Assembly (NCBI RefSeq): GCF_949628265.1
Contig: NC_088788.1
Span: 13,702,001-13,766,000 of the forward strand
From: Cloeon dipterum
Lineage: Eukaryota > Arthropoda > Insecta > Ephemeroptera > Baetidae
DNA: 64,000 nucleotides
Reading direction: 5' to 3'
Positions 31,217 to 64,000 of the stretch are shown one piece after another. The position numbers and the translations under genes were made by a program. The notes under the pieces were generated by a model that ran no database searches, had not been told where the DNA came from, and worked only from the letters and a program-made list of their open reading frames with translations. How positions within the stretch are numbered: the stretch's first letter is position 1; each line of letters opens with the position of its first letter.

Positions 31217-31222
31217 AATAAA
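31217..31222 (+). terminator. candidate poly(A) signal for Rac1
   Basis: AATAAA in an A/T-rich context, followed by a GT/T-rich stretch (TTGTAAGTGCATCTTTT) that fits a downstream element. Another AATAAA is at 31026-31031. The signal is conserved in the duplicate near 41,327. Confidence 0.35.
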
Positions 31223-31239
31223 AATAATAAAAATAATGC

Positions 31240-33000: not shown

Positions 33001-36000
33001 TCAAGGTTCGCATAAGGTGTTCAGCTTACTCGCAAGGCGTTCTCGTGACACGGCAGCAAATGGTATCGACCCATTCGGTCTCAATTTAATTGAGTACAAA
33101 AACCATTCGAGGTAGGGATTGCGATTGGTGTAGCGGTCTTGAAGTTCAGGCGTTAGATTAACTCGGCTGCCTGAAGTGCACCATCTGTAGTCTAAACGGT
33201 CTGAGGCACCAAGTCTGCTCGCCGCTGCCCAGATGAAACCATACGAATCATCTCTTAATGACATTCCTGTAAAGGAAACGATTATTTTAGATTTGTGGTG
33301 TGCTTAAACGAATGCGCTGCTCACCTATTGAACGGTCGATACAATACATTTCCTCGATGGTCTCAATTGAAACCATCTTAAGACCATATTTACAGCATAG
33401 AGAAAAGGCGTCTTGATAAGAAAGCTATAAACACGTTAATGTTAGTATGAAAAAATGTTTGGTTTCAACAAATAGATCATACGCTTATTATAACAAGGAG
33501 GTATTTTTTTCCACAAGCCGTGAATATTTCTGTATCTTGTATTGCTGAAATAATAATTAATTAATATTTTCATATCAAAATTTTGGTATCTAACCTCGGT
33601 CATTCATGTAGTCATCTCTCATTGTTTGCTTTTTTTGATAAACGATGGCTTAACAATTCTTTTGTTTCAATTGACATAGGGTGCTTACATTGATTACACA
33701 TTCATAGTCAGTAAGGCATTTGGGTGCAATTCTAGGGAGTGGTACCGATTCCTATTCAATCGTTTTCCTCGTCATTTCTTTTTTCAATAATGCATGAAAA
33801 AACTACATACTGCCGATGTATCCAGTTGCGCCGTGTTAATCAAGTTGGTCACTAAATCCGGGGCAGTTTCTTGGCCGCATTGAAAAATTAAAGCAGCTGT
33901 GTCGCACTCATCCATTCCCCCTAAATATATACATTTTTTAGTTTGCCAAGAAAAATTTATTCACTCACTTTTTGAACCGCAAGTTGAGATGGCATCCATG
34001 TTTTCTTGTAATCGTGTGTCAGAATCTTGTGCAAACATCTCAGCCAGCAAAATGACCCTCTCGTCAATAAGTTGCCCGTCCCACATCTAACTTGAATTAG
34101 GTTTGAAAATTTTTTCATGTGCGAAAACTTACAAATCCTCCGTTTTCCCCAACACATTTTAGAAAGCACTAAAATTATTTTACCGAATTATAAAAATTTC
34201 ACTTAAAATTATCATTTCCTTAACATTCTTGTTTGTTATTCTTACTATTCTTATTTATATCTTACGGTAATATTTTCATTCTAAATAATATTTCAATCAT
34301 AATTTTATTTTTTAGAATTAATTAACTTATTTCATTAAGGAAAATCAGAAAAGTTAAAAGGCAAAATACACAAGCGTTCAAGTCACTGAAAAGTCGGCAA
34401 AGATAGTCAAGACTTACACAGCCTGCTAAAACAACTAAAAATATCAATTTTTAATAATATTGTAATTTTATTTCAGCAAAACTGAAAAACATTGGGAATC
34501 TTACAGCGGATTAAAATTCTCCACCTCAGTTTATTATTTAGGAGTAACCTTTCGAGTTTCTCGAACGTGTTTTAGTAAAAGGGAAAAATATTCCTAAGGC
34601 TTCTTAAGCCTCTGCCCAATTGTCTAAGAGGAGCCTCTAAATTGTCTCCTTCCTCCTTAGTCGCAATTTTTAGTGAGGCCAATTGGCCCAACGTCCAGGC
34701 CTGCAACTGTACGCTAACATTCGCTTTTCCCTGGTTAATTCGTTTCAATAGACAAGACCGCGCTTCTTTGTGTTTTCGGTGGCCGTAGTTTGTTGCGCCT
34801 CCGTATTAATATTCCAAATTGAACCGTTCGCCCGGGAACGGGAGTTTCTGGACTTATGGAGTGATGCCTGAACAATAATTAAGAATGATTACCTTTATTT
34901 GAAGAGTAAATTTAGTCATATTGAATATGGCCTGAGTCTCTTCTAACAAAACAATACATGAATTAATATTTAGTTTGCTATAACGGCATTATTTTTATTG
35001 TACTTGCCTTTTGATAAATTGAACACCGCAGCGCATTCTTCAACTATTGCATCTGAATGGACCGGGGTATTTCTCGTATCCCGCGCCTCGCATATGTACT
35101 TTTGACTGTTCGAGCAGTCCACGTCATTCAGAAGTGCTCCAGTTTTGCTCAAGCCGAGAATGAGACAGTTTTCTTTTCTTCCGAAATTATCTGGTTGTCC
35201 AGGGGACCACACGGCCTCTTGTTTTCTGACCAGTTTGTTCGCCGCACACCAACCGAATTTACCTTCGCAAGCTTCGTCGCTTCCAGAGGTCCAAAATGAT
35301 CCTTCAGCATTTGATGAATCTCGAAAAAAGTTATATTGAAATTTATTTAAAACTATGTTAAACATTTGATACTTTTAGCTGCTTCAATTAAATTGTTGTA
35401 TTCATAGTCGAATTCTACACTCAGAATCTTCATTCCGATTGCACAACACGACTTCATCGCTTCCAACCACTGCAAAATAATTTAAGCCAGGAGTAAATTA
35501 GCAAATTTAAATTTACAGTCATTTTCGCCGAGCTGAAAAGGTAGAATCTTCCATTGATTGAGTACCAGAACCCGTATTTGCTTGCATCTATATGAATGTG
35601 AGGCGATATTAAAATTTTCAGCTTTTTGCACAATTAAAAAAACTCACTCGTAAGGTAAAGAGTTACGCCGTCTGCAACGTATGTGCTGAACAATGACACC
35701 TTCCAATTATTTCGTTTTTAATGTTAATTATTTTGCAAATTCTATCAGTAATTTACATTTTTGTCACAGTTGAGTTCTGGACATTTTGGAGCAGAGCAAG
35801 CTGGTGGAGGGGTAGTTGGTCCCTACACAAGTTATTTACATAAAATTTAAAATAATGAAGACAAAATTCACACGAACTTGGCATCCGAAAACGTAGAGAT
35901 TGGTGCAATTTTTGCTGGTTAAAAATACTTTGCCGATGCCTTTATCGACTCGCAGATGAACACAGTTGTTCCCAACCGAGTTATTTGGCTGTCCCCGCAG

Positions 36001-37975
36001 CCAATACAACGACGTGTTGTCAATTGTTGATTTGAAATTTGTCATATTTGGCAGACGCCATTGGAACGTTCCATTAACCGATTTGAGAGCCGCGCTCCAG
36101 TAGTTGGCATTATACTTCCACAAAGATGCTGCTGAAAATTTTTTGAAATAAACTTAAGCAACATCCATATCAGTTTATCATACGCTTGGTCATATTTTCT
36201 AAACAATTCCTTTTGTCGTCGTTTTCAATGGCAATTGGTGTCATCCCCAGACTACAGCATTTTACGTAATTTGTTTGCCAATCAACCTGTAAATTAAAAA
36301 CATAACTTGACGGTATTTTGCTGGTAAAATATTTTTTCATTGGATTTTGTTCAATATCATAACATTTTTTGTCACAGAGAATCGCTACATCGCTACTCCT
36401 TCCGCACATAAAGACCGCTCGGCGGCACAGTTTCTTTACTTGAGTAACGCGTCCATCTATCTTTCATGACACCAGAAAGTATAATACAAATTTTTACGTG
36501 CGGATATTTAACTGTATTTTTTGTTTTAAGCATACATTCACTTTTTTCTGCTTCTTTTAACGAGTATATTAATAAATTTGCTTATAAGCATAAATGTCAT
36601 TATTTTTTTAATCTATTTTAACCAATTAAGGAAAAATGAATACTCAAAAATGTATTGAGAATATATCAGTTACTATGTACCACAGTTTTCCCCCACAGAA
36701 ACAATGCACCACAGGCCTCAGTCCAGGAGCCATATTTGGTGGCGTCTGTGGAAATTTCCTGTGAATTACTCAGCAAAACAAATCCCTTAAATCGTACCAA
36801 TAACTCGACCATCCGTGTGAAACAGAGATGCCTAGTGGACAAGTTGAACCCAATGAGCGAGCGATATTTTTCGTGTAAAAATAATTCATACGCTTTTCTT
36901 GCATGCATAGTTATTAAAATCGAAAATTTTCTAGTGAGAAAGAAACATTATTTTTGTGACATTTATGGCAAATAGCACAGCGGATTACATACAGGAGAAA
37001 TTGTTGTTGTAGTGGTGGTGGTGGTAGTAGTGGTGGTGGTGGTGGTGGTGGTGGTAGTGGTGGTGGTGGTTGTGGTGGTTGTAGTGGATGTGGTGGTTGT
37101 GGTGGTAGTGGTAGTAGTTCCAGCAGTTGTGATTTCTGTTGTATTTGGGTTAGAAGCGATAGCATCTGTCGTGGCATTAATATTTCCGCTCTCAGTCACA
37201 GTGGATTGAGCTGCTAAATGAGGTATTTTAATAAAAAAAAAACAAAATATATTTTGCAATTAGGGACAGTAAATTTGAATGTTTTGCGAGTAGCACCTAT
37301 TATTGTTGTTGTTATCAAAGACGAAGGCTCGTTATTTGTCACTTCAGTAAATGAGTTGGTATTATTTGCTATTTGTTCTTGGCTCGATAAAATTTTCTCC
37401 GCACTTTCTGTAGGTTCATCATTCGGAACAACATCGTTTACAGTAACTTGTAATGATTCCTCTGCAATCGTTGGGACTTGAAAATTTTAGGTATTTAATG
37501 TGTCTTTCCAAGTGCACAATTTTGTGCACTTGCAATTTATAAACTCACCACTGCTGGTCAGATTGACGGTGGAAAGAATGACTTCTGTTGATATTCTTGA
37601 CACCTTTTTTTTAATTTTTCGCTATGATTTTAACTATTAATTGTCACTGCTATACTATCACCTGTGAAGAAGAACTGGTAATTCGTGAACGATTGAATGT
37701 TCCTTTGGAACATGACAATTTCCCGCAGCACTTAATTATATAAAACTTTTTCTGATGGCGAGCTGCGAAATTTTACATGAGATTGAGATATTTATAAATT
37801 AAATTTTTTTATAACAAACATCGCCAAGGTCTTTTATTAACATTTTTTGTGTTGATCAATAGCAAGCAGCAAGCTATCCTCTATAATTCCACTGTTCACT
37901 TCATTCACAAAGTTAAAAGTAATATTCACTTACCGCAATCAGAATCATGCAGAAAATTGTACTAAATTTTACCAT
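33001..37975 (-). CDS. gene A: secreted mucin-like protein with three CTLDs and an internal OBP domain
   Basis: Twenty-two exons join in frame to about 815 residues. Exon 1 (37975-37934) encodes signal peptide MVKFSTIFCMILIA. Exon 2 (37751-37662) carries YIIKCCGKLSC. Exons 3-5 (37603-37549, 37476-37297, 37210-36989) are Ser/Thr-rich and end in a long poly-Thr run. CTLD1 (residues about 197-337; 36745-35878) contains WTEACG, DWQTNYVKCCSLGM and WLRGQPNN. A hinge (35822-35757) has CSAPKCPELNC. CTLD2 (about 360-520; 35699-35008) has FWTSGSDEACEGKFGWC and a galactose-type QPD. The OBP-like domain (cysteines 528, 554, 558, 601, 610, 619) is spread over 35319-33811. A second hinge (33751-33689) precedes CTLD3 (33544-33001), which lacks EPN or QPD. 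No membrane anchor is seen. The intron after the exon ending at 35008 has a GC donor (AAAG|GCAAGT). The exon 3 acceptor is weak. A secreted, glycosylated, ligand-binding role is inferred; the biological function is unknown. Confidence 0.88.
37012..37120. repeat. GGT/GTG trinucleotide tract (poly-Thr codons of gene A)
   Basis: On the minus strand this is a run of ACC/ACA/ACT codons giving a nearly pure threonine tract in the mucin-like exon. The homologous exon of gene B (46995-46807) is 33 bases shorter, so the repeat number changes without a frameshift. Confidence 0.95.
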
Positions 37976-38086
37976 TTGTGTAGATTGGAGTAGGGAACTA
38001 TCACACAGGTCTTACAAGTTGGGTAGTGGTATGCACCATCAATCTAGGTTTTGGCATCATTAGGGCTTGCCATGACGTTTTTCCGG

Positions 38087-40650
38087 CAACTCAATACCAT
38101 CGCATCAATATATGTTCTCGTTTTGTTTTTTCCGCTCTGCAGTTTTCCGTTATCGTCATCATTTTTCGTTTAATTTCATAGTAACCTCAAAATTTTGATG
38201 GTAAACAGAAGCGCAGGGTAAAGGCACTCCTGGATTTCTGCGCATAACATTTTTTAAAAGGCAAAACACGGTTGGAATTCTATGTACCAGTACTTACAAA
38301 CCCGCTCTAAGGCTTTGTTGATCCAACATTCCAGAATTTCACACATATCTGCGTTAGGATTAAGAACCTATACCAGCAATAGACTATGCCCATAAAGATT
38401 AACGTATTATATACATGTGTTCTTCAACTGTCTAAGCAAACCTTTTAAAGTGGAATGATACTGGGCAACAATTGAAAATTATTTAAATTGTTGGATGCCA
38501 TAAACAACTGATCCATTAACAATTTGTTCAACAATTTGCAATAATAAAAAATGGACCTTCCCCCACAATAAAAATTCAAATTTTGCCAATTTTCTCCAAA
38601 ATTTACAGTGCTTGAACATATTTCCTTGGCATATTTAGATTCCTCTCGTCGAGATCTGTCCAACGGTGTATGCCACTTATTGGGGAAACTCTTGGTTTTG
38701 AAATTAAATCTAATTTCAAGTAAGGAGACAGCCATTATTACCATTTGAAAAGCACGGCAACTTTCCAGCCAATTTTCTCGAAAAATTACAGTGCTTCCTA
38801 GGTCAATTCAGGCTTTAACTGAATCCTAAGGGAAGAGTTTATGGCAACAAGCATTTTCCAGGCTTTTGCAATATCATTCCTCTTTAAAAAATATACGTGA
38901 GTTTTCATTGTTCTTGACATGCGGCACCAACAATCATGTCAATGAACAAGTTAGGCTGTTTACTAATTATTGTGGAATACGCTATGCAAGTAAGTTCACT
39001 GGAATTCTCAAAGTAAACCAGCATTTCCAGCACGATAAAAAAGATGCTACTGATGTACTCTTCATACGCATAATGCAAAACACAAAATAAACTCTTGTTT
39101 TGTTGTTTTTTGTGACACCAAAACTGGTCGAGTTGAATTAAAAAAGTTTGAAATCAACGAGACTGAAGAAGTCTTGTTTATCATTTTCCACTCAATTATA
39201 ATTTTCCCAATTTTCGACCTTGCGTCTGTATTCTGAGAGAGCAATAAAGGATGATTTCTTAGATTGGCATAATTTTGTGTGAATGATAAAGAAGCAACAC
39301 AGACGCTGAGCTTAAATGTGAAGCTGGGTGCATATAAACACTGATGCATATCAAAATTTATTCCGGTAGATGAATGCAGATGTGCACAAATTCAAACTTA
39401 TTGTTAATCTGTGTCAGGCATACAGAAAGTGAAGCAAATGCTTCCACTGCCTTCTCGGCTAAGCGCAACTGCTGCGGGTTGCGCTTCAAACTAGACAGAG
39501 AGTAAAAATCGCCAGGATTTGCCGCTCGGACAGCAAATCGATCAGTGATTATCGGGAACAGGTTGAAGAGGCTGCTAGTGTTGCACCAAGAGTATTCTGT
39601 GACGCCCAGCTTACTAGCAGCCAGCCAAGCAGGTTCCGCCACAACCGGAATCGTGCCTAGAAGAGGAAGCACAAATATTCATTTATAATATCATTGAAAA
39701 TGAATTTAATCTTACTCTTTGAGGTATCAATAAGGCATAAAAGGTCACTCGGACTCTTGAACGAAGAAAGTTTCAGACCGTATTTACAGCACAAAGAAAA
39801 TGATTCCTGATACGACACCTGCAAAAATAAATAATTTTTTTATAATTGTTTTGCATCTAAATTTTCTGTTACACACTCTTGAAAAGATGATTAGATATTT
39901 AACCCCACAAGCCGTAAAAATGTTTCCATTTGGTATAGCTAAAAATAATAACTGTAAGAATAAGAATTACAAGCGTTTATAAAAGTTAGGTTACAAAATT
40001 AAGTTTCAAACAAATCTTTATCTGGAATTCTGTAATAAAGAGTTAAACAGACAGCAAACCTCTGTTGTTCAAGTAATCATCTCGCATTTGTGGCTGTTTG
40101 TGAGTAAGTAATGATTAATTATTATTAGGAACTCATTTGAAATAAAAAAATGTTCACATCAATGACACAGTCGAAATCAGTAAGACACTTTCCTAAAGTT
40201 CCAGGTAGTGGCACTGATTCCTAAGTTAGTAATTTTTCTGAATATTTACTTGTTAAAAAAATATTTAACTTTTACAGAAGATTTATTGAATTCGACCGTA
40301 TTTATCACGTTAGCGACGAGATCTGGTGCTTTTTCTTGGCCGCATTGGAAAATCAATGAAGCTGTATCGCATTCATCCATTCCCCCTAAAATTGTTTGTA
40401 TGAATAGAAGCTCTACGAAATGTTTTTCATTTTCGAGGGGCCTACTTTTTGAACCGCACGTATAGAGACAGCAATCATGTTTTCCTGCATTATGTCCGTG
40501 TTTACTGCCATGCTTTCGGCCAGTAACAAAATCTTCTCATCAACGAGTTTTCCATTCAACATCTGATTAAAATTTGTAAAAATCATGGAGAAATCATTGC
40601 TACGTGTGTGAATTGAAAAACTTACAAATCCTCCATTTTCTGCTAAGCAT
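38087..40650. repeat. duplicated block, copy of 54491-56515
   Basis: Collinear with the gene D-gene E intergenic region and the 3' exons of gene E (54491-56515), except for a 435 bp TTAA-flanked insertion at 38449-38883. It begins after a 1-base overlap with unit A and stops abruptly inside the OBP exon corresponding to 56526-56491. There it joins a gene A fragment with 1-2 bases of microhomology. Confidence 0.9.
38449..38883. mobile_element. MITE-like element with TTAA target duplication
   Basis: A 435 bp insertion absent from the paralogous site near 54,800, which reads AAGCAAACCTTTCAAAAAAT. Both ends are flanked by TTAA (38445-38448 and 38884-38887). The ends are imperfect inverted repeats: left AGTGGAATGATACTGGGCAA, right in reverse complement AGAGGAATGATATTGCAA. 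No transposase is encoded. TTAA duplication is typical of piggyBac-type elements, so a non-autonomous piggyBac-like MITE is inferred. Confidence 0.65.
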
Positions 40651-40922
40651 TACATTTTTGTCACAGTTGAGTTCTGGACATTTTGGAGCAGAGCAAGCTG
40701 GTGGAGGGGTAGTTGGTCCCTACTCAAGTTATTTACATTAAATTAAAAAGAATAAAGACAAAATTCACACAATTTTGGCATCCGAAAACGTAGAGATTGG
40801 TGCAATTTTTGCTGGTTAAAAATACTTTGTCGATGCCTTTATCGACTCGCAGATGAACACAGTTGTTCCCAACCGAGTTATTTGGCTGTCCCCGCAGCCA
40901 ATACAACGACGTGCTGTCAATT
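39404..40922 (-). pseudogene. relic C: chimeric fragment of gene E 3' exons fused to part of gene A
   Basis: From 39404 to 40650 this matches the gene E exons for CTLD3, the second hinge and the C-terminal half of the OBP domain. From 40651 to 40922 it matches gene A 35753-36025 (hinge exon and the end of CTLD1). It is broken: a one-base deletion in the terminal exon near 39,500 shifts frame relative to gene E, and a two-base insertion (near 40,460; CACGTATAGAG against CACGTAGAG) disrupts the OBP exon. The E and A pieces are joined inside exons in the wrong domain order. No signal peptide or promoter is present. It is a duplication by-product, not a working gene. Confidence 0.88.
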
Positions 40923-40931
40923 ACGTCTTTA

Positions 40932-42777
40932 CAAGCCAACTCATCCTTCGAACAAACAAATGCCGCTCTTATTGTCTGGGATGAAATGGGAAAAAGAATA
41001 ACTACTAATGATTATCTCTTGTTGTTGCATTTGTTGAGAAATTTACAACATCGTCCTACACAAGCTGATCGACATAATTGATTTCCTTTAACAGATGTAA
41101 AATGTCCACATTGCTGTTGTTAATTTGGAGCTCATAATAAAAAAATAATAAATAACATTGAGGAACTCGCAAACTGACGAAAACGATTGATGATGCCTCG
41201 GGAAAAATACCCATGTTTTGATTAAAATGGATAGGTGGAATATTGAACAACAACATACTGTGTGTAACCTGTACCACAAATTGAAATTTTCCAGAAAAAT
41301 CTTAACTGTGTATGATAGTATTTCCAAATAAAAATAATAAAATAATGCATTGAAATCTTGTAAGTGCATCTTTTATTTCATAGTTGTATACTCTCACATT
41401 GTCAAAATACAATAATTTTCTGGCATTTATTATAGCTATTAAATCTTAATGTCACACCACCAGCCTTTAAAAGTTTCATCAACTACCATTAATTAGGAAA
41501 ATTAATATTTATTTTTATAAACACCGGATTGTGGAAGATTAAGAAATCTGAACGCCCAACTTAAATAGAGAAATCCTCCAACACATTTCAAAATATGCAT
41601 CTTCTAAAGAATAACTGCAGTAGCTCAAAACAAATAGAAACGTGAATATATCAAGCTTTGCTTTTTTTGCCAAAACTTAATATTATCAAGGACAAAGTTT
41701 AACCCCTATTATAAACTCCATGGAATAATTTCTAATAAAATATTTGGAAAAATAAATTAAAATGTTTTCGATGATGAGCATTATTTTAAGTATGTATCAC
41801 ACGACACGACATCATACACAACATTTAAAAAAGTGAATAGTTATGCTACCCGCACTTTAAGACTGCTTGGCGGCACAGTTTTCCAAATGTGCAAGGCGGA
41901 TCATTACATAATATGTGACAGTAACAATAAAACACTGTTTACATACATGTACCTTTTTTGGTTTAGGCCGATTCATTTTAATGACCGCAGTAGCACGTAG
42001 GACAAGTTCCTCATCACGTATTTGAAAATAAATATAAATTTTAAATAGAAAACGTCCAATTGCCTCACTCGCTTCATATTTACCAAGGTATTTTTGCAAA
42101 GTAAAAAGTTAAATTTTAAAATTAGTGTTCTTGAATCAAACTTTATTTTCTGTTCTTACAAAGAAAACACTCAACTCATCACGATAATGTCTAATAAAAT
42201 CACGTAAATTAAAAATAAATAGCCCGTCATCTTTTTCCGACTAAACGTTTTAGAACCAAGGATTAAGAAGAGGTCTTATCTTCATTGAAAAAGCTAGTGC
42301 CTAGTATATCATATCCAATTGAACACATTTAAATCCACTAGCTGTAAGGGAACACTAAACACACGTTTATTTGAACACTCCAAATAAAAATCTAAATTAT
42401 CTATGATCTGCAGAGCATTCAAACAATTAAAATAAAAATCTCTTATTAACACTGAGAAAATATAATCTGAGAGCAGCTCTTTTAAAGCAGCTGATTTGAG
42501 TAATTCAATTTCTCATCTACTATCAAACTAGCTTTGGTATGTAAGTGAAAATGTGCTTAGATGCGGGAAGCATAATACCTTCCTTAAATAAAGCTCAACC
42601 GCAAAGGTATTAAGACTGAAAGCTGTCAATCAGGATTGAAACGCTTCAGATTACCTCAGTGTTTATTAAAATTGGTGTGTGCATCACCTGTAGTGCGTGT
42701 TTTGAAATATATTGGTTGTGTTTCACACGAAAAAAAAATACTTGAAAATTTGTAGAATCAAAGAAATCGAACTTTGT
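40932..42777. other. noncoding stretch upstream of the gene B stop (duplicated trailer)
   Basis: Copy of the presumed Rac1 3' trailer end (to about 41,350) and of the Rac1-gene A intergenic region. Because Rac1 itself is not duplicated, this is an orphan trailer fragment. No gene is seen. Compared with unit A there are several small deletions, for example near 41,590-41,660. Confidence 0.75.
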
Positions 42778-45700
42778 TCAAGGTTCGCATAAAGTGGTCA
42801 ACCTACTCACAAGGCGTTCTCGTGACATGGCAGCAACTGGTATCGCCACTGGCGGTCTGAATTTAATTGAGTACAAAAACCAATCGAGGTAGGGATTGCG
42901 ATCGGTGTAGCGGTCTTCAAATTCAGGCGTTAGATTTACTCGGCTGCCTGAAATGCACCATCTGTAGTCTAAAGGGTCTGAGGCACCAAGTCTGCTCGCC
43001 GCTGCCCAGATGTAACCTAACGATTCATCTCTTAACTCCATTCCTAAAAATGAAACAATTCTTAGACTTGTGGTGTGCTTAAACGAATGCGCTTCTCACC
43101 TATTGAACGGTTGATACAATACATTTCCTCGATGGTCTCAACTGTAACCATCTTAAGACCATATTTACAGCAGAGAGAAGAGGCTTCTTGGTAAGAAAGC
43201 TACGAATATGGTTATGCTAGTATGAAACAATCATTTGGTCTCAACAAGTAGATCATACGAATTTTTTGAAAAGGAGGTATTTTATCCCACAAGTCGTGAA
43301 TATTTCTGTATCTTGTATTGCTGAACAAATACATACTAATTTATTAATATTTTCGGATCAAAATTTTGGTGTCAAACCTCGGCCATTCAAGTAATCATCT
43401 CTCATTTTTTGCTATTTTTAATAAACGATGGGTTAACAATTATTTTGTATCTGAAATAAGGTGCTTACATCGATCACACATTCATAGTCTGTAGGGCATT
43501 TGGGTGCAATTCTAGGGAGTGGTACCGATTCCTATTCAATCGTTTTCCTCGTCATTTCTTTTTTCAATAATGCATGAAAAAACTACATACTGCCGATGTA
43601 TCCAGTTGCGCCGTGTTAATCAAGTTGGTCACTAAATCCGGGGCAGTTTCTTGGCCGCATTGAAAAATTAAAGCAGCTGTGTCGCACTCATCCATTCCCC
43701 CTAAATATATACATTTTTTAATTTGCCAAGGAAAATTTATTCACTCACTTTTTGAACCGCAGGTTGAGATGGCATCCATGTTTTCTTGTAATCGTGTGTC
43801 AGAATCTTGTGCAAACATCTCAGCCAGCAAGATAACCCTCTCGTCAATAAGTTGCCCGTCCCACATCTAACTTGAATTAGGTTTGGAAATATTTTCTTGT
43901 GCGAAAACTTACAAATCCTCCGTTTTCCCCAACACATTTTAGAAAGCACTAAAAATTATTTTAACGAATTAAAAAAATTTCACTTAAAATTATCGCTTCC
44001 TTAACATTCTTGTTTGTTATTCTTACTATTCTTATTTATATCTTACGGTAATATTTTCATTCTAAATAATATTTCAATCATAATTTTATTTTTTAGAATT
44101 AATTAACTTATTTCAGTAAGGAAAATCAGAAAAAGTGAAAAAGGCAAAATATACAAGCGTTCAAGTCACAAAAAAGTCGGCAAAGATAGTCAAGTCTTAC
44201 ACAGCCATATCCGTTTTAAATAATATTGTCATTTTATTTCAGCAAAACTGAAAAACAATGGGAATCTTACAGCGGATTAAAATTCTTCACCTCAGTTTAT
44301 TATTTAGGAGTAACCTGTTCGAGTTTCAGAAACGTGTTTTAATAGGCATATTAACAAAAGGGTAAAATCTTCCTAAGGCCCCCGCCTGTCAATGCACCCG
44401 AGCGCTTGTTTACCCTCTGCCCATTTATCTAAAAGGAGCATCTAAATTCTCTCTTTCCTCCTTAGTCGCAATTTTTTAGTCAGGACCAGTTGGCCAATTG
44501 GCCCAACATCGAGGCTTGCAACTGTACGCTAATATTCGCTCTTCCCTGCTTAATTCGCTTCAATATAGACAAGACCGCGCTTCTTACAATTAGTGTTCTC
44601 GGTGGCCGCACTTTGTTGCGCCTCTGTATTAATATTCCAAATTTAACCGTTCGTGCGGGAACGGGAGTTTATGGCGTGATGCCTGAACACCCATTAAGAA
44701 TGATTACCTTTATTTGAAGAGTAAATTTAGTCGTATTGAATATGGCCTGAGTCTCTCCTAACAAAACAATACATGAATTAATATTTAGTTTGCTATAACG
44801 GCATTATTTTTATTTTACTTGCCTTTTGATAAATTGAACACCGCAGCGCATTCATCGACTATCGCATCTGAATGGACCGGAGTATTTCTCGTATCCCGCG
44901 CCTCGCATATGTACTTTTGACTGTTCGAGCAGTCCACGTCATTAAGAAGTGCTCCAGTTTTGCTCAAGCCGAGAATAAGACAGTTTTCTTTTCCTCCGAA
45001 ATTATCTGGTTGTCCAGGGGACCACACGACCTCTTGTTTTCTAACCAGTTTGTTCACCGCACACCAACCGAATTTACCTTCGCAAGCTTCGTCGCTTCCA
45101 GAGGTCCAAAATGCTCCTTCAGCATTTGATGAATCTCGAAAAAAGTTATATTGAAATTTATTTAAAACTATGTTAAACATTTGATACTTTTAGCTGCTTC
45201 AATTAAATTGTTGTATTCATAGTCGAATTCTACACTCAGAATCTTCATTCCGATTGCACAACACGACTTCATCGCTTCCAACCACTGCAAAATAATTTAA
45301 GCCAGGAGTAAATTAGCAAATTTAAATTTACAGTCATTTTCGCCGAGCTGAAAAGGTAGAATCTTCCATTGATTGAGTACCAGAACCCGTATTTGCTTGC
45401 GTCTATATGAATGTGAGGCGATATTAAAATTTTCAGCTTTTTGCACAATTAAAAAAACTCACTCGTAAGGTAAAGAGTAACGCCGTCTGCAACGTATGTG
45501 CTAAACAATGACACCTTCCAATTATTTCGTTTTTAATGTTAATCATTTTGCATATTCTATCACTAATTTACATTTTTTTCACAGTTAAGCTCTGGACATT
45601 TTGGAGCAGAGCAAGCTGGTGGAGGGGTAGTTGGTCCCTACACAAGTTATTTACATTAAATTAAAAAGAATAAAGACAAAATTCACGCAAACTTGGCATC

Positions 45701-47787: not shown

Positions 47788-47911
47788 TTGTGTAGATTGA
47801 AGTAGGAAACTATCACACAGGTCTGACAAGTTGGGTAGTGTGATGCTCCATCAATCTAGGTTTTTGGCATCACTTAATTTAGCGAAAGGCTTGCCATGAC
47901 GTTTTTCCGGC

Positions 47912-52000: not shown

Positions 52001-54454
52001 GCAGCTCTCAGTGTAGGTAGGACCCTTTGGTTCTCCTGGTAGCCACAGCTTTGAGGTGCTGAACTGCAGATTGGTTGTTCCCCACTCGAATGTTCCGTTG
52101 CCCAAAATTTTTCGTCCTCCAGTCCAGTAATTTAGGTTGTAATTCCAAAGAGGGTTGGGACCTTACATTGAGGAATATACATCAGCTCTATACGATATAT
52201 TAAGCACAAATCTCACTCTTCAAAAATGAGTTTAAACACGTTCTGTTTGAATCATCCGTGATTAAAATTGGCGTCATTCCAATGCTGCAACATCTGTTGT
52301 AGTTTGTTTGCCAGTCAACCTGAGCGTGCATACCGAAATATTTATTATCATTGAGGCCACCATTCAAATTTGTCTTTTGGAAATGACTAGCATATTTTTA
52401 CAACCTATATATTTCAAGATACATTAATTTTATTTTCTTGGAGATTTCCAATAGGGGCTTTTCCATCCTGAATCGAAATGCCTGACATATTCCTCAAAGC
52501 TAACAACCGTCATCTGTATTGTTCTATTATAGTTTCGGTTTCTGCCCGACGCACTTTTTCATGTTATTTTTTTATGTTTATTCATGAAATATGGCTTTGG
52601 GAAGAAGCCGGGACTAGTAGAGCAATTAAGATGCCGTTTGTAACCTTCTAGGAAAATTCCCGGCACACCAATTCACCATCAACATTATTTATAATAAATA
52701 AATTGCTTTTAAAATTCTTGAATCAAGAAAAAGTTTAACAGAATGTAGGGAAATTAAGTTAACATAATTTTGTCTGTCACGTTAACTTACCACGGTTTTC
52801 CCCCACAAATACAGCATGCCACAAGCATTTGTCCAATATCCATAGTCATCAGGATCTATGGTGTTATATTTTACAGTAAAACTAATTGGTTAAAAAATTG
52901 CAAAATATTTTTGGTTCAAAGTAAAGAGACCAAAACGTTCAACAAATCAAATTTCTTATGCAGCTTGAGCTTTAAAGGAAATTCATTTAAATATTATAAA
53001 TCCCTTCGTTAAGATGTCAACACTCGAGGTTGGTTGTTCCATATTATGATAGAAACGGAATTTTTTAGCATTGAGAATGGAGTCCATTTCTATCATAATA
53101 TTATTAATCCCATTTAAGAAAACTGTTAACAATAGAGGCAAATAATCACTAAATTGAGGGAAATTTCTCTGACTGAGTGAATTTAATTAGTATGCAAAGG
53201 AAGAGAAAATAAATACGAAATTTTGCATAGAATAAGAATAAAAAAATGTCATACCAATCAATGTGCCACTTCTAAATAATGCATCCTATGTGAAGCGTGT
53301 ATTTTATGACAAGGAAAGTAAATAATATATTATAACCTACATTTCTCTCGCACAATCCAAATTCATATATTACCTAGAAGAATATAGGTGATATGATCTT
53401 AAAATGTTGTTTATAAATATATTATCAGTACTTTATAATACAAGGGATTCCGAGTTGTCGTTCTTGTTGTAATGATCTTATTAGTTTTTTGCGTGGTTTC
53501 TTGCTCTTATAAATTTTAAATATCACAAGCAAACTCAATTTATAGATTTTAAGTAACTACGGGATGTGACCGATGATGCATTTGTTTGTAAGGTAGATTC
53601 AGAGGATGACGTGATAGTGCTGTTAAGTGCTGAAACAATATCAGTAGTTAACAGTTTTTCTGGTCCTTCCGTTGGAGAAATAGATTGGTGAGTTTCTGTC
53701 GGCTCATCAAATCTAGATGAGATTTCTCCAATTAGCATAATTTTCCAGAAAAATTGATAGTTCAAATACTTGGAAGTGTCAAGTATCTGTTGAGTTTGTT
53801 TTGAGCTTGTTGAGTCTTCTTGCACCGTTGTAATGACTTCAAAACTAGCGGTTTGTGTCAAAATTTCAGTTACTTCAGGAACCTTATCCTGTGAGGTTGA
53901 TGGAAGAGAAAATTCAGTCTGCTTTGGTGCAGCCGCCAAGTCAATATGAAACTCTAATAAAATGTTTTGCGTTCAGCTATACTTTTACCAGATATGTTGT
54001 TCTACCTTTCACTGTTGAGAATAGCGTTGTGGTCTGACGCATCGCACTGTTCCATTAATTTTTAGTAAAAATAAATTATTACCACGCACCTCAATAACGC
54101 TTGTCGTTCCATTTTTGCGATGTTTGGGCGGCACGTTTGTACAAGATGCTTTTCCGCAGCATTTTATTATGTGCTGCCGTCTTATTAAGTTAGCTATGGA
54201 ATGAAATTATAAAATGCAACTTTTAATAGAAGCGAGAAAAATTAAACGTATGTTCTGTTTTATTATGAATATTAAAAAGCAATATTTTAAATTATGTTCT
54301 AAAATTTGCTTACATGATGGCCTCTTGCGTCTATCTCGTAGCAGTGAGTTGGAAAGCTGCTTTAATTAGTTAACGTGAAAAACTTGCACTTTGCATCAGT
54401 TTCAAATAATACCCCAATAAGTAAAAGCACTATGAACATATGAGTAGCCGACAT
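49065..54454 (-). CDS. gene D: CTLD-CTLD-OBP-CTLD protein, CTLD3 exon interrupted by a LINE
   Basis: A diverged paralogue. Exon 1 (54454-54413) encodes signal peptide MSATHMFIVLLLIG. Exon 54173-54090 has HIIKCCGKASC. A Ser/Thr-rich region (about 54033-53561) follows. CTLD1 (52855-52791, 52319-52217, 52161-51917) carries PGEPKG. The hinge reads CYKPKCPEISC. CTLD2 (about 51750-51047) carries KGEPNSAQESC, a mannose-type EPN. The OBP domain (51349-50535) has spacing C-x25-C-x3-C-x41-C-x8-C-x8-C. The exon starting CTLD3 (50239-49529) is split between IFTA and CGIKYL by the LINE at 49565-50218, which brings in-frame stops when read through. The last two exons of other family members appear fused here into one open frame ending at 49065. 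All exons upstream of the LINE are open. It is therefore either a recent pseudogene or a shortened protein lacking CTLD3. Confidence 0.75.
49565..50218 (+). mobile_element. 5'-truncated non-LTR retrotransposon (CR1/L2/jockey-like) 3' end
   Basis: The plus-strand frame, open through 50040, encodes the C-terminal tail typical of non-LTR reverse transcriptases. It shows LVKPKLFYGTPAWHPWTKAN, then TQNKALHFIYGR, then a distal FDFRVIAFWNATPPALK resembling the WNxLP box of CR1/L2 elements. The catalytic domain and 5' end are missing. The element ends in an A-rich TGAGAATAAACAAGCAATA tail. It sits antisense in a gene D exon. A possible 4-base target duplication AAGC (49561-49564 and 50219-50222) restores the family codon sequence when one copy is removed. 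It is dead on arrival and cannot move itself. Confidence 0.85.
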
Positions 54455-54490
54455 CAGAACCGAGTTTACTGAACGGATTTGAAATGATGT

Positions 54491-56515
54491 CAACTCAATA
54501 GCATCGCATCAATATATGTTTTCGTTTTGTTTTTTCCGCTCTGCGCTTTTCCGTTATCGTCACCATTTTTCGTTTAATTTCATAGAAACCTCAAAAATTT
54601 GATGGTAAACAGAAGCGCAGGGTAAAGGCACTCCTGGACTTCTGCGCATAACATTTTTTAAAAGGCAAAACACGGTTGGAATTCTATGTACCAGTACTTA
54701 CAAACCCGTTCTAAGGCTTTGTTGATCCAACATTCCATCAAAAAACTATGCCCATAAAGATTAACGTTCTTATTTGTTCTTAAATTGACTAAGCAAACCT
54801 TTCAAAAAATAAAAGTTTTCATTGTTCTTGACATGTTTCGGCACCAACAATCATGTCAATGAACAAGTTAGGCTTGTTTACTAATTATTGTGGAATAGGC
54901 TATGCAAGTAAGTTCACTGGAATTCTCAAAGTAAACCAGTATTTCCAGCACGATTAGGAAGATGCTACTTGATGCTGCTCAGATTGCAAAACACAAAATA
55001 AACGCATGTTTTGTTGTTTTTTGTGACACCAAAACTGGTCGAGTTGAGTTAAATAACGAGGCTGAAGAAGTCTTGTTTATCATGTTCCACTCAATTATAA
55101 TTTTCCCAATTTTCGACCTTGCGTCTCTATTCTGAGAGAGCAATAAAAGATGATTTCCCAGATTGATATAATTTTGTGTGAGTGATAAAGAAGCAACACG
55201 TACGCTGAGCTTAAATGTGAAGCAGGGTGCATATAAACACTGATGCATATCAAAATTTATTCCAGTAGATCAATGCAGATGTGCACAAATTCAAACTTAA
55301 TCTGTGTCAGGCATACAGAAAGTGAAGCAAATGCTTCCACTGCCTTCTCGGCCAAGCGCAACTGCTGCAGGTTGCGCATCAAACTTGACAGAGAGCAAAA
55401 AATCGCCAGGATTTGCCGCTCGGTCAGGAAATCGATCAGTGATTGTCGGGAACAGGTTGAAGGGGCTGCTAGTGGTGCACCAAGAGTAGTCTGTGACGCC
55501 CAGCTTACTAGCAGCCAGCCAAGCATGTTCCGCCACAACCGGAATCGTGCCTGGAAGTGTAAGAAGATTTTCATTTATGATATAATTAAAAATGAGATTA
55601 ATCTTACTCTTTGAGGCATCAATAAGGCATAAAAGGTCACTCGGACTCTTGAACGAAGAAAGTTTCAGACCGTATTTACAGCACAAAGAAAATGCTTCCT
55701 GATACGAAACCTGCAAGAATTTTTTTTAAATATTGGTTGCATCTAAATTTTCTGTTACTCTCGAAAAGATGATTAGATATTTAACCCCACAAGCCGTAAA
55801 AATGTTTCCATTGGGTATAGCTAAAAATAATAACTGTATTAACAAGAAATACAAGCGTTAGGTTATAAATTTAAGTTTCAAACAAATCTTTTTGTTATAA
55901 AGAATTAAACAGACAGCAAACCTCTGTTGTTCAAGTAATCGTCTCGCATTTGTGGCTGTTTGTGAAGTAATGAAAAAATATTATTATTATTAGGTACTTA
56001 TTTGAAGTAAAAAAATGTTCACATCAATGACACAGTCGAAATCAGTAAGACACTTTCCTAATTTTCTTGGTAGTGGCACTGATTCCTAAGATAAAAATGT
56101 TTCTGAATATTTACAACAGCGAAAATAAAAATTAATCTTTTACAGATGATTTATTTAATTCCACCGTATTTATCACGTTAGCGACGAGTTCTGGTGCTTT
56201 TTCTTGGCCGCATTGGAAAATCAATGAAGCTGTATCGCATTCATCCATTCCCCCTAAAATTGTTTGTAATAATAGCAACTCTACGAAATGTTTTTCATTT
56301 TCGAGGGGCCTACTTTTTGAACCGCACGTAGAGACAGCAATCATGTTTTCCTGCATTATGTCTGTGTTAACTGCCATGCTTTCGGCCAGTAACAAAATCT
56401 TCTCATCAACGAGTTTTCCATTCAACATCTGATTAAAATTTGAAAAATCATGGAGGAATCATTGCTACGTGTGGGAATTGAAAAACTTACAAATCCTCCA
56501 TTTTCTGCTAAGCAT
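54491..56515. repeat. duplicated block, source-like copy of 38087-40650
   Basis: Contains the gene D-gene E intergenic region (54,455-55,296 holds no gene) and the 3' exons of gene E. It lacks the MITE-like insertion found in the 38 kb copy, and its gene E exons are intact, so it represents the ancestral state. Confidence 0.88.
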
Positions 56516-59500
56516 TTCAAGAAGCACTGAAAATTTTACGATTTGAATAAAAAAGGACAATGATTAAAAAATACTTTGATCTTGAGGGAAAATATTGTTG
56601 TATTAAAAATCTGCCTGGCTTCCTCTAAGAATAAAATATTAATTATTGTTGATGCAATATCGTAACACAAATTACCTTTGGAAACATTAAATGCGGCTCC
56701 ACACTCGTCTACCATAGCTTCTGAATTGGACGTTGTTTTTGTCGTGTCCCTAGCCTCGCAAATGTACATTTGACTTGTCGAGCAGTCCGCATCAAAGAGC
56801 GTTGCGCTAGTTTGGCTCAAACTAAGAAAGATGCAGTTTTCCTTGCCGGCATAATTATTTGGTTCACCCGGGTGCCACTTGGTTTCTTGACTCCTTGCCA
56901 ATTTGTTCACCGAGCACCATCCAAAATTCCCCTCGCAGCCATCATCAGTGCCTGAAGTCCAAAATATGCCATTTGCACTCGTCGAATCTGAAGAAAATAT
57001 TTAATTCCAGCTCAGTTAGGAACCGTTTACTATACATACTATACGCGGCAGCAATAAGGTTATTGTATTCATAGTCGAATTCTATGCTGAGGATCTTCAT
57101 TCCAATTGCGCAACACGATTTTGCTGCATCCAACCACTTAAAAAAATTGTACAAACCAGCAGTGGGGATTAATTCCTTTATTGATATAATTTAAATTACG
57201 GTCTTTTTCGCCGAGTTGAACACGTAGCTTCTACCATTAACTGTGAACCAGAAACCATGGCTACTTGGATCTGTTTTCAAGAGTACCAAAATATCATAGA
57301 AAACAATTCAGACACAATTAGTTTACTCGTCAAGTACTGAGTAACGCCATCAGCAAGAGTACTAAAAAACGATGGCTGGAACAAAGGAGTTAACAATCAG
57401 TCGTACGTACTTTTAAGCCTATTTTTATTACATTTTTGTCACAGTTAAATTCGGGGCATTTTGGAGCAAAGCACGGAGGGGCAGGAGTCGGTTTTCCCTT
57501 TGATGAAAGAGGTAAATAGTTTAAAATAAACTTAAATTTTGCTTACTTGGCATCCAAAAACATAAAGATCGGAACAATTTCTGGCAGTCAGGAATACTTT
57601 GCTTAGACTTTTGTTCACTTGCAGGTGGACACAATTTTCCCCGTTTATAGCACGCGGTTGTCCTGGCATCCAATACGACGACGTGCTGCCAAATGTCGTG
57701 AAGTTTGCAGCATTGGGCAGACACCATTCAAACAATTGGAAGGTGTCATTCATGCTGGTTTTGTGGGCCGCGGTCCAGTAATTATAATTATACTTCCAAA
57801 CCGAGGCTACAAAGATTTCATTTTTAGCCGCATTTCAATATTGATTTTACAAAATATATTCGTACGCTTTGTAATATTTTCTAAACATTTCTTTTTGTTT
57901 TCGTTTTCCATAGTGATTGGCGTCATTCCCAAACTGCAGCATTTGTCGTGATTTGTTTGCCAATTCACCTTTGAAAATTTTGTGTTTATAAAATTATTGT
58001 AAAACTTTTCAACATAGAAATTTCATATAGGTAAAATCTACCGCAATTTTAAGAGTGATATTTCTGTTACCAGAAAATGTGTCTTGTTAATTTATAGCTC
58101 CCAAATTTGTTTTCTGCTCTTTAAAAAAGAATGCAAGAAATAAATATCGGCTTATAATCTATTTAAGTTTAGATAGATATGATTTGTTATCGGATTTGCA
58201 GAAATGTACTGGTGAGCAAATAATTAAGATCAAAGTCAAGAGTAAGCCGCGAATTAGAATGTTAGATAATGCTGCCATCAGAAATGGAAAATACGGACTC
58301 TTACAGAGTTCGTCAATATTTTTCGCAAACTGTTCACAAGGACTGCAATAATTATTATTTTCTATATTTTACTTAAAACAATATAATAAACTAATAATTA
58401 AAAATTTATTTATTTTATAAATAATGACTAATATAACTCGAACTATCGCGAATTGAAGTTCACATACCACCGTTTTCCCCCACAAAAATAATTGGCCACA
58501 GGCCTCGGTCCAGTACCCATAATCTTTTGCATCTATGGATGATTATAGATATTATTACATGCTAAATACATTCCGTTTAAATAATTATGCACCAATGAGA
58601 TGACCGTCATTGGAATACAGGGATACCTGACGAAATATTTTAAATATAATTTATTTCTTAAACTAAAAATCTGGTAATATACGTTTTTCTTGCATGTGCT
58701 GTTGTTGTATTCAAAAATCGTCTGTAAAATGAAATTAATATTTTTCAGATTTAAAGAGCATGGCACGTGCAACAATTTTTTTTGGATCGATTGTTGTTGT
58801 GAGGACCGTGGTGGTTATTTTTTGTGTATCAGCTTTGGTGGCAGTAGTTGTTGAGAAGCCAGCAGTGGGGCTCGGAAAAGTGCCGGAAACGGTGCTTGCG
58901 CTGATGATGGTTCCGGTGGCAGCGGCGGTGCTGGTGCTGGCTGTAGAACCATAATCTAGCTGCTTCAATTCATGTGCATTTGTGATTATTATCTTTTGGG
59001 CTAAAGTTTCTATTTGAAATCTGACACTAAAAATCGGTTTGAATCAAGTTAGGTAATTTAAAATGCACTAAAACTACAACTGCTTCGCACACAAAAGTTA
59101 AATTAAAATACTAAACAATTCGATTTACCGTAATTGGATTTACCGTGGTTGTGGTTGTGGACGTTGTGGTGGTGGTGGTGGCGGCGGTTGATACTTCAGT
59201 CGCACTGGGTAATACGGAGGGTGCATTCACTGGAGCTAGGTTAATTTTTTGAAATTTTTATCGATTAAAATAAAAGATTAAACCTGAAGTCGTAGCTATA
59301 TCAGATTTGGTCGTAGTTTCACCAGGACTGTTTGGTTCAGTCTCAATACGATTTGAATTAGTAGTTTCTGCGTCTTGCTCCTGATTATTTGTAGATGATT
59401 TTTCCTCAATTTGTGTAGATTCCCCTATATCTCCTTCATGTATCTGCGTAGTTTGAATTAAATCTTCACCACTTGAGGCTGCATTATACAATTTTCAGTA

Positions 59501-61600: not shown

Positions 61601-62110
61601 TTATATCGGCTTTGGCTGCATTTACGTTGGTGGTACAGGGTGGCGCTCTCTCCTTCCCTGGCTGCCTGAATCTATTCGTCCAAATATAGGGTATGCGTCG
61701 AGATAAGTTAAACCCCACGAATTGTCGTAATGCCTTTATTTGTATGCCGTAATTAGGTCCCTAAATAGGGAGCTGTCAGGATTGGCAATGCAAAATTGGA
61801 TCGTTCAATTAATCGTCGAATTAAGGGTTCGTAAAGTAAGCTATTTGCTTAAAGGTCAACGAACTCCTAAATGTGCGGCCGAGGGAGCAATATTTGCTGC
61901 TACCGCACACGTCGATCTTCGAGTTTGGAATAACTACTTCTGGTTAACACGAATATATTCAGGCAGCCAGGGAAAGAGAGAGCGCCACCCTGTGGCAGCC
62001 ACCATAGTGGTGCTGAGGCTGATTATTGAACCACAACTGCTTCAATTCATATGTAATTGGTACAATATTTTGGCCAAATTATATGGTTACTCGGCCGTAG
62101 CATTTGAATT
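61601..62110 (-). pseudogene. second relic of a Ser/Thr-rich exon, interrupted by a MITE-like element
   Basis: The left flank (ATCGGCTTTGGCTGCATTTA) and right flank (GAACCACAACTGCTTCAATT) of the element at 61636-61992 resemble the gene E exon 58959-58767 and its acceptor region (ACCATAATCTAGCTGCTTCA). The relic is a separate copy from the one at 60.7-61.6 kb. It may be the decayed 5' part of an older gene near F. Confidence 0.5.
61636..61992. mobile_element. MITE-like element with long terminal inverted repeats
   Basis: About 357 bp. The ends are nearly perfect 44-45 bp inverted repeats. The left end starts CAGGGTGGCGCTCTCTCC. The right end in reverse complement starts CAGGGTGGCGCTCTCTCT, and both continue through CCCTGGCTGCCTGAAT and ATTCGT. 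No transposase frame is present. No clear target duplication was found, so the superfamily is open (hAT- or Tc1/mariner-like ends are possible). Confidence 0.8.
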
Positions 62111-62511
62111 AAAAGACTGTTTAATAAATATCGATATTTTTACAAAAATGCTATTGAAATTATTAAAATAGCGCTTCCGTAAAGATGTTTGCTGAAAATT
62201 TATAACCGCTGATTTTTGCAAATATTTTCAATAACATTTAATGAAGATGTAAAATATATTGCACACAAAATATTACAGAGGAGAAGAAGATTGCCCTCGA
62301 TTAAAATTATTCGAATTAAAATTAGATATATTCAGGACTAATAACAACTCATAACATTTCTGCACCGAGGATAAGTCCAATAATTTATTAATTGTTCTGC
62401 AGGTGGGAAATAGATATAGCAATTTTAATCAAACTTCTTGGCATTATACACTCATAAAGGGACATTTTAACTTCCCAAGTGAACATTTTTAATAATAAAA
62501 CGATGAAAGTT
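62111..62511. other. 3' flank of gene F
   Basis: AT-rich with no gene recognised. It probably holds the gene F poly(A) site. Confidence 0.5.
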
Positions 62512-64000
62512 TCAAGGCTTGCAGAAAGGTAACAATATGCTTCCCTTGTCCTCCTGGGCTAAGTAAACATCAGTTGGCTGCGTATCAACGACGAATCTGA
62601 CCGAAAGAAGAAACGAGTTGGGCAAAGATGAGCGTTCAGGGTAGTGAACGGATATTGTGGGCATCAGATTGAACGGGCTGGTGGACGTGCACCAAGCGTA
62701 ATTCGCGACTCCACGTTTACTTGCCGCCAGCCAGACGTGAAAATTCAAGACGGGAAGCGTGCCTGAGAGAAGAGACAATTATTTTGCACTTTCAATGATA
62801 ATGCTTTGCTCACTCATTGATTTGTTAACCAGGCACAAGAGCTCACTTGGACTACTGAAAGAGGCCAATTTGAGGCCGTACTTACAGCACAATGAAGCTG
62901 CTGCTTGATACGAAATCTGAATGCAATATGGATATTTATTTAATTATAAATGTAAGACGTCTTCATTGGGATACCCAATCATACGGGATCAGATACTTCA
63001 CTCCGCAGGCGGTGAAAAGTATAACCTTGTTCGCATCAACTAAACAATAATTGTTAACGTTGCAATGCGATATACCTAAATAAAAATCTGGAATCTATTT
63101 ATACCTCTGTTATATAAATAATCATCTCTCATTTGCGGCTGTGGATTAAAAATCAATGTATTAACTCCTATTAGCGCAAAAGTAATGAGTTTACGTCCAA
63201 AACACAGTCATACTCAGTCGGGCATTTCGGTACAGGGCCTGGTAGAGGAACTGCTTCCTAAATTGAAATTATAAAACTGGAATAGAGTGAGACACAACTA
63301 AATATACTGAGGACGCATTTATTTCCACTGTGTTGATTATATTGGCAACAAGATCTGGCGCATTTTCCAGACCGCATTGGAAGATTAACGACGCCGTGTC
63401 GCACTCGTCCATCCCCTCTGTGATATATATCGGTATTTCAAAGTGAACTCTATTTCCTCTATAATGCTTGCTTTTTGAACTGCAAGTTGAAACGGCGATC
63501 ATGTTTTCTTGCAGTATCGCAGAATTAGCTGCCATAATTTCGGCCATCAACAAAATTCTCTCGTCAACCAGTTTTCCATTCAACATCTGATAAGCAGTAA
63601 AATGATAAGTTATCCTTAAGCATAAATGGAACTTACGAATCCTCCATTTTCTCCCATGCATTTCAGAAAGCACTGTTTAAAATAATTATATTTTAGAGTA
63701 TTTTAATTTATTACTGTTGCAAAAATACTTTGATTTTAAGAGAGTATGTGGTTGTATTGAAAATCTGTTTGATTTCATCTAAGGTATTATTTAAAAATAT
63801 TATTTCCCGCGACTGGCTCAAATTTATTATAATCTTAAATGCCTTTGGAGAGGTTGAAAGCTGCTCCGCACTCGTCCACCATTGCCCCAGAACTTGAAGT
63901 CGTTTTGGTCGTGTCCCTCGCCTCGCAAATGTACATTTGGCTGGTCGAGCAGTCCGCATCATAGAGCGTTGCGCTAGTTTGGCTCAAACTAAGAAAGATG
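62512..64000 (-). CDS. gene F: 3' part of another CTLD/OBP family member (5' end beyond window)
   Basis: Visible exons encode the end of CTLD2 (SATLYDADCSTSQMYICEAR, partial at the window edge), the OBP domain and CTLD3. OBP pieces are EECxAAF-type C1 (DECGAAFNLSK), IKQIFNTTTYSLKIK, CFLKCMGENGGF, MLNGKLVDERILLMAE and GMDECDTASLIFQCG, keeping C-x3-C and C-x8-C. The second hinge reads PVPKCPTEYDC. CTLD3 has LFTACGVKYL, CCKYGLKLASF and VWLAASKRGVANYAWC, and ends in the stop at 62512 (terminal exon 62762-62512). Two donors appear to be GC rather than GT: AAAG|GCATTT after the CTLD2 exon and AAAAA|GCAAGC after the third OBP exon. No frameshift is seen. The closest relative in the window is gene E. 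Confidence 0.82.

Follow-up and report, generated by a model that had tools for sequence, protein, structure and literature searches.

Odorant-binding-protein domains fused with C-type lectin-like domains in a mayfly gene array, and their probable place in the large OBP set of Cloeon dipterum

A gene array with a six-cysteine block between lectin-like domains

We analysed a stretch of 64,000 nucleotides from the mayfly Cloeon dipterum (NCBI RefSeq assembly GCF_949628265.1, contig NC_088788.1, positions 13,702,001 to 13,766,000 of the forward strand), referred to below as the window. From 33 kb to its right edge, the window holds an array of minus-strand genes, named A to F, whose products combine C-type lectin-like domains (CTLDs) with a six-cysteine block of the odorant-binding-protein (OBP) kind. 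Judged from sequence comparison, this array very probably forms part of a genome-wide family of secreted-type mosaic proteins; in gene A the order is CTLD-CTLD-OBP-CTLD, with a degenerate third CTLD. Plain positions are those of the window; labels C1 to C5 followed by a colon and a position denote the five large contigs of the assembly, while the cysteines of the OBP are separately named C1 to C6.

The exon chain of gene A was built by hand: frames free of stops were joined at splice sites and compared with the paralogs.

33001..37975, minus strand: gene A, a 23-exon model of 809 residues, resting on splice sites, phases, a single terminal stop and Pfam matches
33811..35054, minus strand: OBP module of gene A, made of the end of exon 35319-35008 (C1) and exons 34942-34893, 34168-34133 (C2, C3), 34086-33969 (C4) and 33920-33811 (C5, C6)

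The predicted protein starts with a hydrophobic, signal-peptide-like segment, followed by an N-terminal part of 166 residues (50% serine, threonine and proline), CTLD1, CTLD2, the OBP and CTLD3, the last of which resembles CTLD2 with a BLASTP value of 3e-5. All introns have AG acceptors and GT donors in consistent phases, the sole exception being one GC donor (GCAAGT), which sits on the CTLD2/OBP exon in both A and B. The six cysteines (C-x25-C-x3-C-x42-C-x8-C-x8-C) occupy residues 522-613, and the last OBP exon ends in phase 0. An earlier reading of this DNA, made from the letters and open reading frames (ORFs) alone and called here the sequence-only reading, had placed the OBP at about residues 520-640; in the rebuilt model it spans 516-635.

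The search for exons of B, D, E and F asked for AG acceptors, for donors of the GT or GC type and for the phases seen in gene A; agreement in phase among paralogs is thus partly built into it. What is not built in is the occurrence in these paralogs of ordered, well-matching, stop-free exons with the required splice sites.

42778..47787, minus strand: gene B, a near-copy of A, with its start codon set from the ORF, modelled from CTLD1 on
43591..44869, minus strand: OBP module of gene B (end of 45134-44823, then 44757-44708, 43948-43913, 43866-43749, 43700-43591)
49065..52319, minus strand: gene D, modelled part, with CTLD1, CTLD2 and OBP; its CTLD3 exons are unconvincing
50535..51093, minus strand: OBP module of gene D (end of 51349-51047, then 50999-50950, 50896-50861, 50807-50693, 50644-50535)
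55297..57968, minus strand: gene E, modelled part, with CTLD1, CTLD2, OBP and CTLD3, the frame unbroken to the stop
56144..56722, minus strand: OBP module of gene E (end of 56987-56676, then 56624-56575, 56526-56491, 56428-56314, 56253-56144)
62512..64000, minus strand: gene F, with the end of CTLD2 carrying C1, OBP exons 63778-63729, 63672-63637, 63586-63472 and 63417-63308, and CTLD3

Gene B repeats 17 exons of A from CTLD1 on at equal lengths, and D, E and F match wherever they were modelled. Donors are GT apart from the CTLD2/OBP exon of A and B and two exons of F, which have GC; of the two in F, the one that follows the exon with C1 is poor (GCATTT). The OBP of gene F lies entirely within the window, and the 5' part of this gene continues beyond it, in locus L027. 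The sequence-only reading had set the OBP between CTLD2 and CTLD3 in one continuous frame. This stands for A, B and E, where the frame is open through CTLD2, OBP and CTLD3 to the stop and which are the only genes of the window with a clean, full CTLD-OBP-CTLD3 chain; for D, whose CTLD3 exons are unconvincing, it is not borne out.

The six-cysteine block belongs to the PBP/GOBP family

The assignment of the block to the PBP/GOBP family, proposed from cysteine spacing, was borne out when the spliced proteins of A (from CTLD1 on), D, E and F, with B outside the scan, were compared with Pfam. PF01395 matched in all four, with E-values of 6.4e-10 (A), 9.1e-10 (D), 7.3e-10 (E) and 7.4e-8 (F), all above the Pfam cut-off; the OBP piece of gene A alone gave 3.7e-11, and in gene E the OBP match extends over positions 4-112 of the 113 in the model. 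The spacing is also as had been read, C-x25-C-x3-C-x41/42-C-x8-C-x8-C, with 42 residues between C3 and C4 in A and one fewer in D, E and F.

Domains from elsewhere in the genome behave in the same way. Exon-chain modelling of the OBP at 28 places gave chains at 16, and eight of the 12 others stopped at the short first OBP exon. Six of the 16 chains took a CTLD1-region exon as CTLD2 (L024, L027, L034 twice, L038 and L040) and the L022 chain has a shortened third OBP exon; from all 16 only the OBP exons were used. Twelve of them, together with A, D and E, make up an alignment of 15 rows, in which the C1 segments of L024, L025, L038, L040 and L041 were read by hand from the frames. All 15 domains matched PF01395 (E <= 0.01), C2 to C6 are invariant in every row, and C1 is present in all 13 rows that include its segment. 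A PDB search with a profile of five window domains found solved OBPs (best 2.5e-6), and the 15-domain profile matched 27 distinct sequences at E <= 0.001, with 4pt1 the best at 7.3e-11; these are named as odorant- or pheromone-binding, save three that are listed under a mosquito gene name only.

These Pfam and sequence-profile matches identify the six-cysteine block as an OBP of the PBP/GOBP family. Like 4pt1, 5dic and LUSH, it has the shared six-cysteine spacing, a near-complete Pfam model and a profile match to solved OBPs. Unlike these free, small, soluble proteins, the OBP here is joined to CTLDs in a product of about 800 residues (gene A), and the usual picture of a small, single-domain, soluble secreted protein does not apply, as the CTLDs stand in the same frame. 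D7 salivary proteins and dimer OBPs also hold OBP folds within larger secreted proteins; they repeat OBP domains and, unlike the mayfly chimera, are not known to have a lectin domain.

As to the lectin domains, the best PF00059 stretch is CTLD2 in A, D and E, and two stretches matched in D and in E. CTLD3 had no Pfam match.

CTLD2 and the OBP share one gene across the genome

In the window genes C1 lies in the very exon that ends CTLD2, just as had been seen from the letters. A 99-residue query across the CTLD2/OBP join gave 150 listed matches (out of 349 candidates), and 104 of these span the join in one frame, none with a stop; three of the 104 have no listed OBP exon downstream.

We searched a genome of 190.1 Mb, in which five contigs of 33-43 Mb hold 187 of 190 Mb. 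OBP loci were collected with OBP queries from three subfamilies and the matches pooled, most entries being matches to the last OBP exon and a few to one before it; the CTLD exons were placed by means of three CTLD2-query searches, and all counts are among the matches listed. The first pooling gave at least 175 OBP loci, all on the five large contigs. At least 159 of these 175 have, on the same strand, an upstream CTLD2-query match at a distance below 3 kb, with a median of 492 bp, and among the remaining 16 an upstream CTLD was found by local tblastn at the following 11.

C1:8282892, C1:8289102, C2:8153847, C2:10715259, C2:34609201, C2:34620873 (local tblastn)
C2:34709814, C2:34724007, C3:22379274, C4:8664683, C5:3171488 (local tblastn)

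The other five are pseudogene C of the array, C3:1963662, which has no CTLD within about 2.5 kb upstream, and three loci left outside this check (C2:10724049, C2:34730519 and C3:1957500), the last of which may lie in one gene with C3:1963662. Queries from divergent members added five clear loci, each with an upstream CTLD (C2:34704840 and four at C2:8.298-8.315 Mb), while three further weak loci were left out of the count. In total, a close upstream CTLD exon on the same strand accompanies 175 of the 180 OBP loci listed, 180 being a minimum for the genome. In the sequence fetched for closer study, an upstream CTLD is present at 28 of 29 OBP places, and the exception lies at a locus edge, where the genome-wide CTLD2 list covers it. 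We regard it as nearly certain from these comparisons that the CTLD-OBP architecture, with CTLD2 and the OBP in one gene, is real.

Intron phases fit exon shuffling, and the OBP is conserved

Other subfamilies have an intron between CTLD2 and the OBP. A phase-0 donor directly after the CTLD2 motif ICE (LCE in L038) is the sole donor listed in L023, L024, L038 and L040 and one among several in L025, and in L041 a GC donor is needed at this point. All six loci have a phase-0 acceptor before the OBP exon; it is the only one in L038 and the best choice by likeness to paralogs in the other five. The phase-0 end of the last OBP exon, found in gene A, was required in the models of the other loci. Phase-0 introns at both ends of the module fit what exon shuffling predicts.

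One lone OBP locus was found, at C3:3625362-3625941. Read by eye, it shares with the embedded OBPs a phase-0 intron directly before C2 and another, of phase 1, between C4 and C5, and because the same two intron positions and phases recur there, the module probably derives from an ordinary OBP gene. This lone OBP carries extra cysteines before C2 (CCNF...SC) and is possibly of the Plus-C or atypical type. A search of the genome with the PF01395 family returned one place only, which, as scoring was done exon by exon, is no sign that OBPs are rare.

Simple pairwise counts of nonsynonymous (dN) and synonymous (dS) change indicate that the OBP is under purifying selection in the array. Between E and F, the last four OBP exons give dN of 0.107 and dS of 2.5; between A and E, OBP dN is 0.21 with dS saturated; the more distant window pairs range over 0.11-0.29 in OBP dN, with dS above 2 or saturated. 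The OBP value for A and E stands beside 0.22 for CTLD1 and 0.21 for CTLD2, and that for A and D (0.29) beside 0.43 and 0.37, respectively. CTLD3 changes fastest, with dN of 0.42 between A and E, and between A and B its dN/dS is about 0.96 (39.5 nonsynonymous and 11.5 synonymous changes); the other domains of this pair show too few changes to weigh (three of each kind in the OBP).

The family and the published OBP set of C. dipterum

The published genome of C. dipterum (Almudi et al. 2020, PMC7250882; an assembly of 180 Mb in 1395 scaffolds) was reported to hold 191 OBP genes, at that time the largest repertoire described, along with 49 odorant receptors (ORs) and ORCO. The chromosome number of the species is given as 2n = 10 (PMC6446309). 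According to the genome report, 82 of 167 OBPs are expressed in the gills, 25 of them specifically there; OBP expression is also seen in nymphal heads, and three OBPs give an in situ signal in HRP-positive gill clusters, that is, with co-staining for a neural marker (PMC7250882). In the portion of its main text available to us, the words "lectin" and "CTLD" do not occur.

The 191 published genes and our minimum of 180 loci are similar in number, and those genes are described, in the same portion of the report, as OBP genes and with no mention of a lectin. As the OBP counts, the genome size (190 Mb here, 180 Mb published) and the karyotype (five large contigs, 2n = 10) agree, the CTLD-OBP family probably makes up the bulk of the published 191. 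The record OBP set would then probably be, for the most part, one exon-shuffled family of secreted lectin-OBP chimeras, and the expression of OBPs in the gills would have to be re-read as that of surface-anchored ligand traps.

The mayfly Parafronurus youi likewise has proteins with the PBP_GOBP domain, yet only 10 OBPs of 135-252 residues are given for it, and the accessible part of that paper has neither the word "lectin" nor a sign of a chimeric expansion (PMC13205551); because P. youi has only 10 OBPs, the CTLD-OBP expansion seems to be lineage-specific. The CTLD expansion of chiggers resembles the present one in its large family size and in the EPN/QPD motifs of some members, whereas the mites tabulated in that study have 0 OBPs, unlike the mayfly with its chimeras; the same table gives 0 ORs and 0 OBPs for Daphnia pulex (PMC6275457), which speaks against a branchiopod as the source of this genome. 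A springtail was set aside as well, since 7tm_6 receptor matches are present and a search for DIOX_N, taken as a mark of the springtail penicillin genes, gave no match. Our search of the literature for a CTLD-OBP protein found none described, and in the texts as available OBP and CTLD occurred together only as unrelated subjects of that mite paper (PMC6275457). Two well-known domains thus appear to be combined here in an undescribed architecture.

Proposed explanation and its rivals

We propose that a set of OBP exons with phase-0 ends entered the intron behind a CTLD by exon shuffling, probably once, and that tandem and segmental duplications then multiplied the resulting chimera. The CTLDs and the glycosylated Ser/Thr-rich N-terminal part might anchor the protein on glycan-rich, water-exposed surfaces, such as gill and cuticle coats, mucus or microbes, where the OBP pocket could capture small hydrophobic molecules. 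Anchoring would keep a soluble carrier from washing away, and its use might lie in chemosensing or in the sequestering of microbial or toxic lipophiles. This function of an anchored ligand trap is the least certain part of the explanation, and we put it forward tentatively, with somewhat less than even confidence.

Several observations weigh against the explanation or narrow it. The genome-wide queries came from the CTLD-OBP family itself, and 175 of 180 therefore gives no estimate of the number of ordinary single-domain OBPs. A CTLD3-query match follows the OBP at 16 of the 25 fetched places with at least 1.5 kb of downstream sequence, and none was found at the other nine: L031, L035 (twice), L036 and L037 of the large C1/C4/C5 subfamily, which include all five of its tested members; L028 (twice) and L038 of the C3 subfamily; and one place in L034. 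The C-terminal CTLD may have been lost there or may be too divergent. At L031 two CTLD matches do follow the OBP, possibly marking a diverged third CTLD. The motifs EPN and QPD, which together with WND are tied to sugar specificity (PMC6275457), occur in 13 of 33 CTLD1 and 16 of 52 CTLD2 rows (poor alignments and some other CTLDs are among these rows). A WND motif was not seen in the CTLD rows inspected. Because EPN/QPD is confined to a minority of rows and WND was not seen, sugar binding is doubtful for many of these CTLDs, and their ligand may be something else; the suggestion of the sequence-only reading that the protein could bind both sugars and small hydrophobic ligands is thus conjectural. 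The 7tm_6 receptor matches listed here, by exon-wise search, number five as against the 49 published ORs and ORCO. Finally, for three OBPs the published staining of HRP-positive gill clusters speaks for a sensory function; in the report as available, these three are not matched to the CTLD-OBP family.

As an observation apart, an extra CTLD apparently stands ahead of CTLD1 at L031 (C1:40585000-40594000) and also at L035-L037. Since this extra CTLD seems to precede CTLD1 and no CTLD3-query match follows the OBP, domain order in the C1/C4/C5 subfamily may differ from that of the window.

Two other roles, to which we give about equal weight, are each a real possibility, though well short of even. 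On one hand, the family may be a set of innate-immune or barrier lectins, a secreted opsonin or a part of mucus, in which the OBP binds microbial lipophiles or is structural and no chemosensing is involved. The CTLDs, the Ser/Thr-rich part and the strongly diversified tandem arrays suit such a role, as does the rapid change of CTLD3 with its A/B ratio; an immune meaning has been given to the CTLD expansion of a mite, in a study that also mentions secreted CTLDs at barriers, for example crustacean gills (PMC6275457). On the other side, conservation of the OBP among the window genes equals or exceeds that of CTLD1 and CTLD2, and its cysteines have been retained, which makes a mere spacer unlikely, and published expression in nymphal heads and in HRP-positive gill cells is not what an opsonin would suggest (PMC7250882).

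On the other hand, the proteins may be tethered odorant carriers, their CTLDs fixing the OBP in the glycocalyx of a sensillum or gill against wash-out. The HRP neural marker recognises a carbohydrate, and secretory cells could thus stain with it as well. This lessens what can be drawn for such carriers from the published gill and head expression and from the neural-marker co-staining of OBP-expressing gill clusters, which would otherwise speak in their favour, and, as far as the available text goes, the three stained OBPs are neither matched to CTLD-OBP genes nor linked to a receptor (PMC7250882).

The least credible alternative, that the OBP exons form small genes of their own, scattered among the CTLD genes, and that the chimera is a modelling artefact, can draw on the read-through of the gene A OBP into the next intron, which can end after a few residues and makes short 3' isoforms conceivable, on published counts that treat these as OBP genes (PMC7250882), and on the nine of 25 OBPs with no CTLD3 detected behind them, but we reject it as extremely improbable in view of the exon shared by C1 and the end of CTLD2, the 104 stop-free joins and the upstream CTLDs at 175 of the 180 loci listed.

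OBPs are usually treated as small, free odorant carriers, and olfactory capacity is inferred from how many of them a genome holds. Should the record mayfly expansion indeed be made up of lectin-OBP chimeras, OBP counts from domain searches would mislead and the proposed chemosensory role of mayfly gills would call for re-testing. There would also be a natural case of an OBP held on a lectin-like scaffold, by which roles of OBPs in immunity and surface chemistry would become directly testable.

Duplication, rearrangement and neighbours of the array

Genes A and B derive from a segmental duplication of 6.3 kb with 89.9% DNA identity (31936-38087 and 41715-47911), and their OBPs are 98% identical. 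A separate flank of 0.75 kb is duplicated as well, at 90.4% (30819-31576 and 40929-41661). Repeats of threonine codons in the mucin-like N-terminal exons differ in length between the two genes (37012-37112 in A, 46827-46897 in B).

39358..41004, minus strand: gene C, a rearranged pseudogene, its 5' part resembling A/B (end of CTLD1, linker) and its 3' part resembling E (latter half of the OBP, CTLD3)

Gene C has neither CTLD2 nor the first half of the OBP and carries a frameshift in an OBP exon. Within 38883-41004, its 5' part is 96% identical to A/B over 273 bp and its 3' part 89.6% identical to E over 1.8 kb, with the junction at about 40650; it is a pseudogene and apparently arose by unequal recombination within the array.

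In gene D an insert of roughly 0.7 kb interrupts the CTLD3 region, at about 49500-50050. The insert has long open frames on both strands at 49516-50046, of which the one scanned gave no Pfam match, and we take it to resemble a remnant of a retroelement reverse transcriptase. An Rfam scan of the window gave 0 matches.

Beyond the window the array goes on with at least two further genes (C3:13771726 and C3:13778876). Near its other end, at 27911-28294 on the plus strand, lies an exon of a Ras-family small GTPase, presumably Rac-like, with a Pfam Ras match (E = 1.3e-4) barely above the cut-off.

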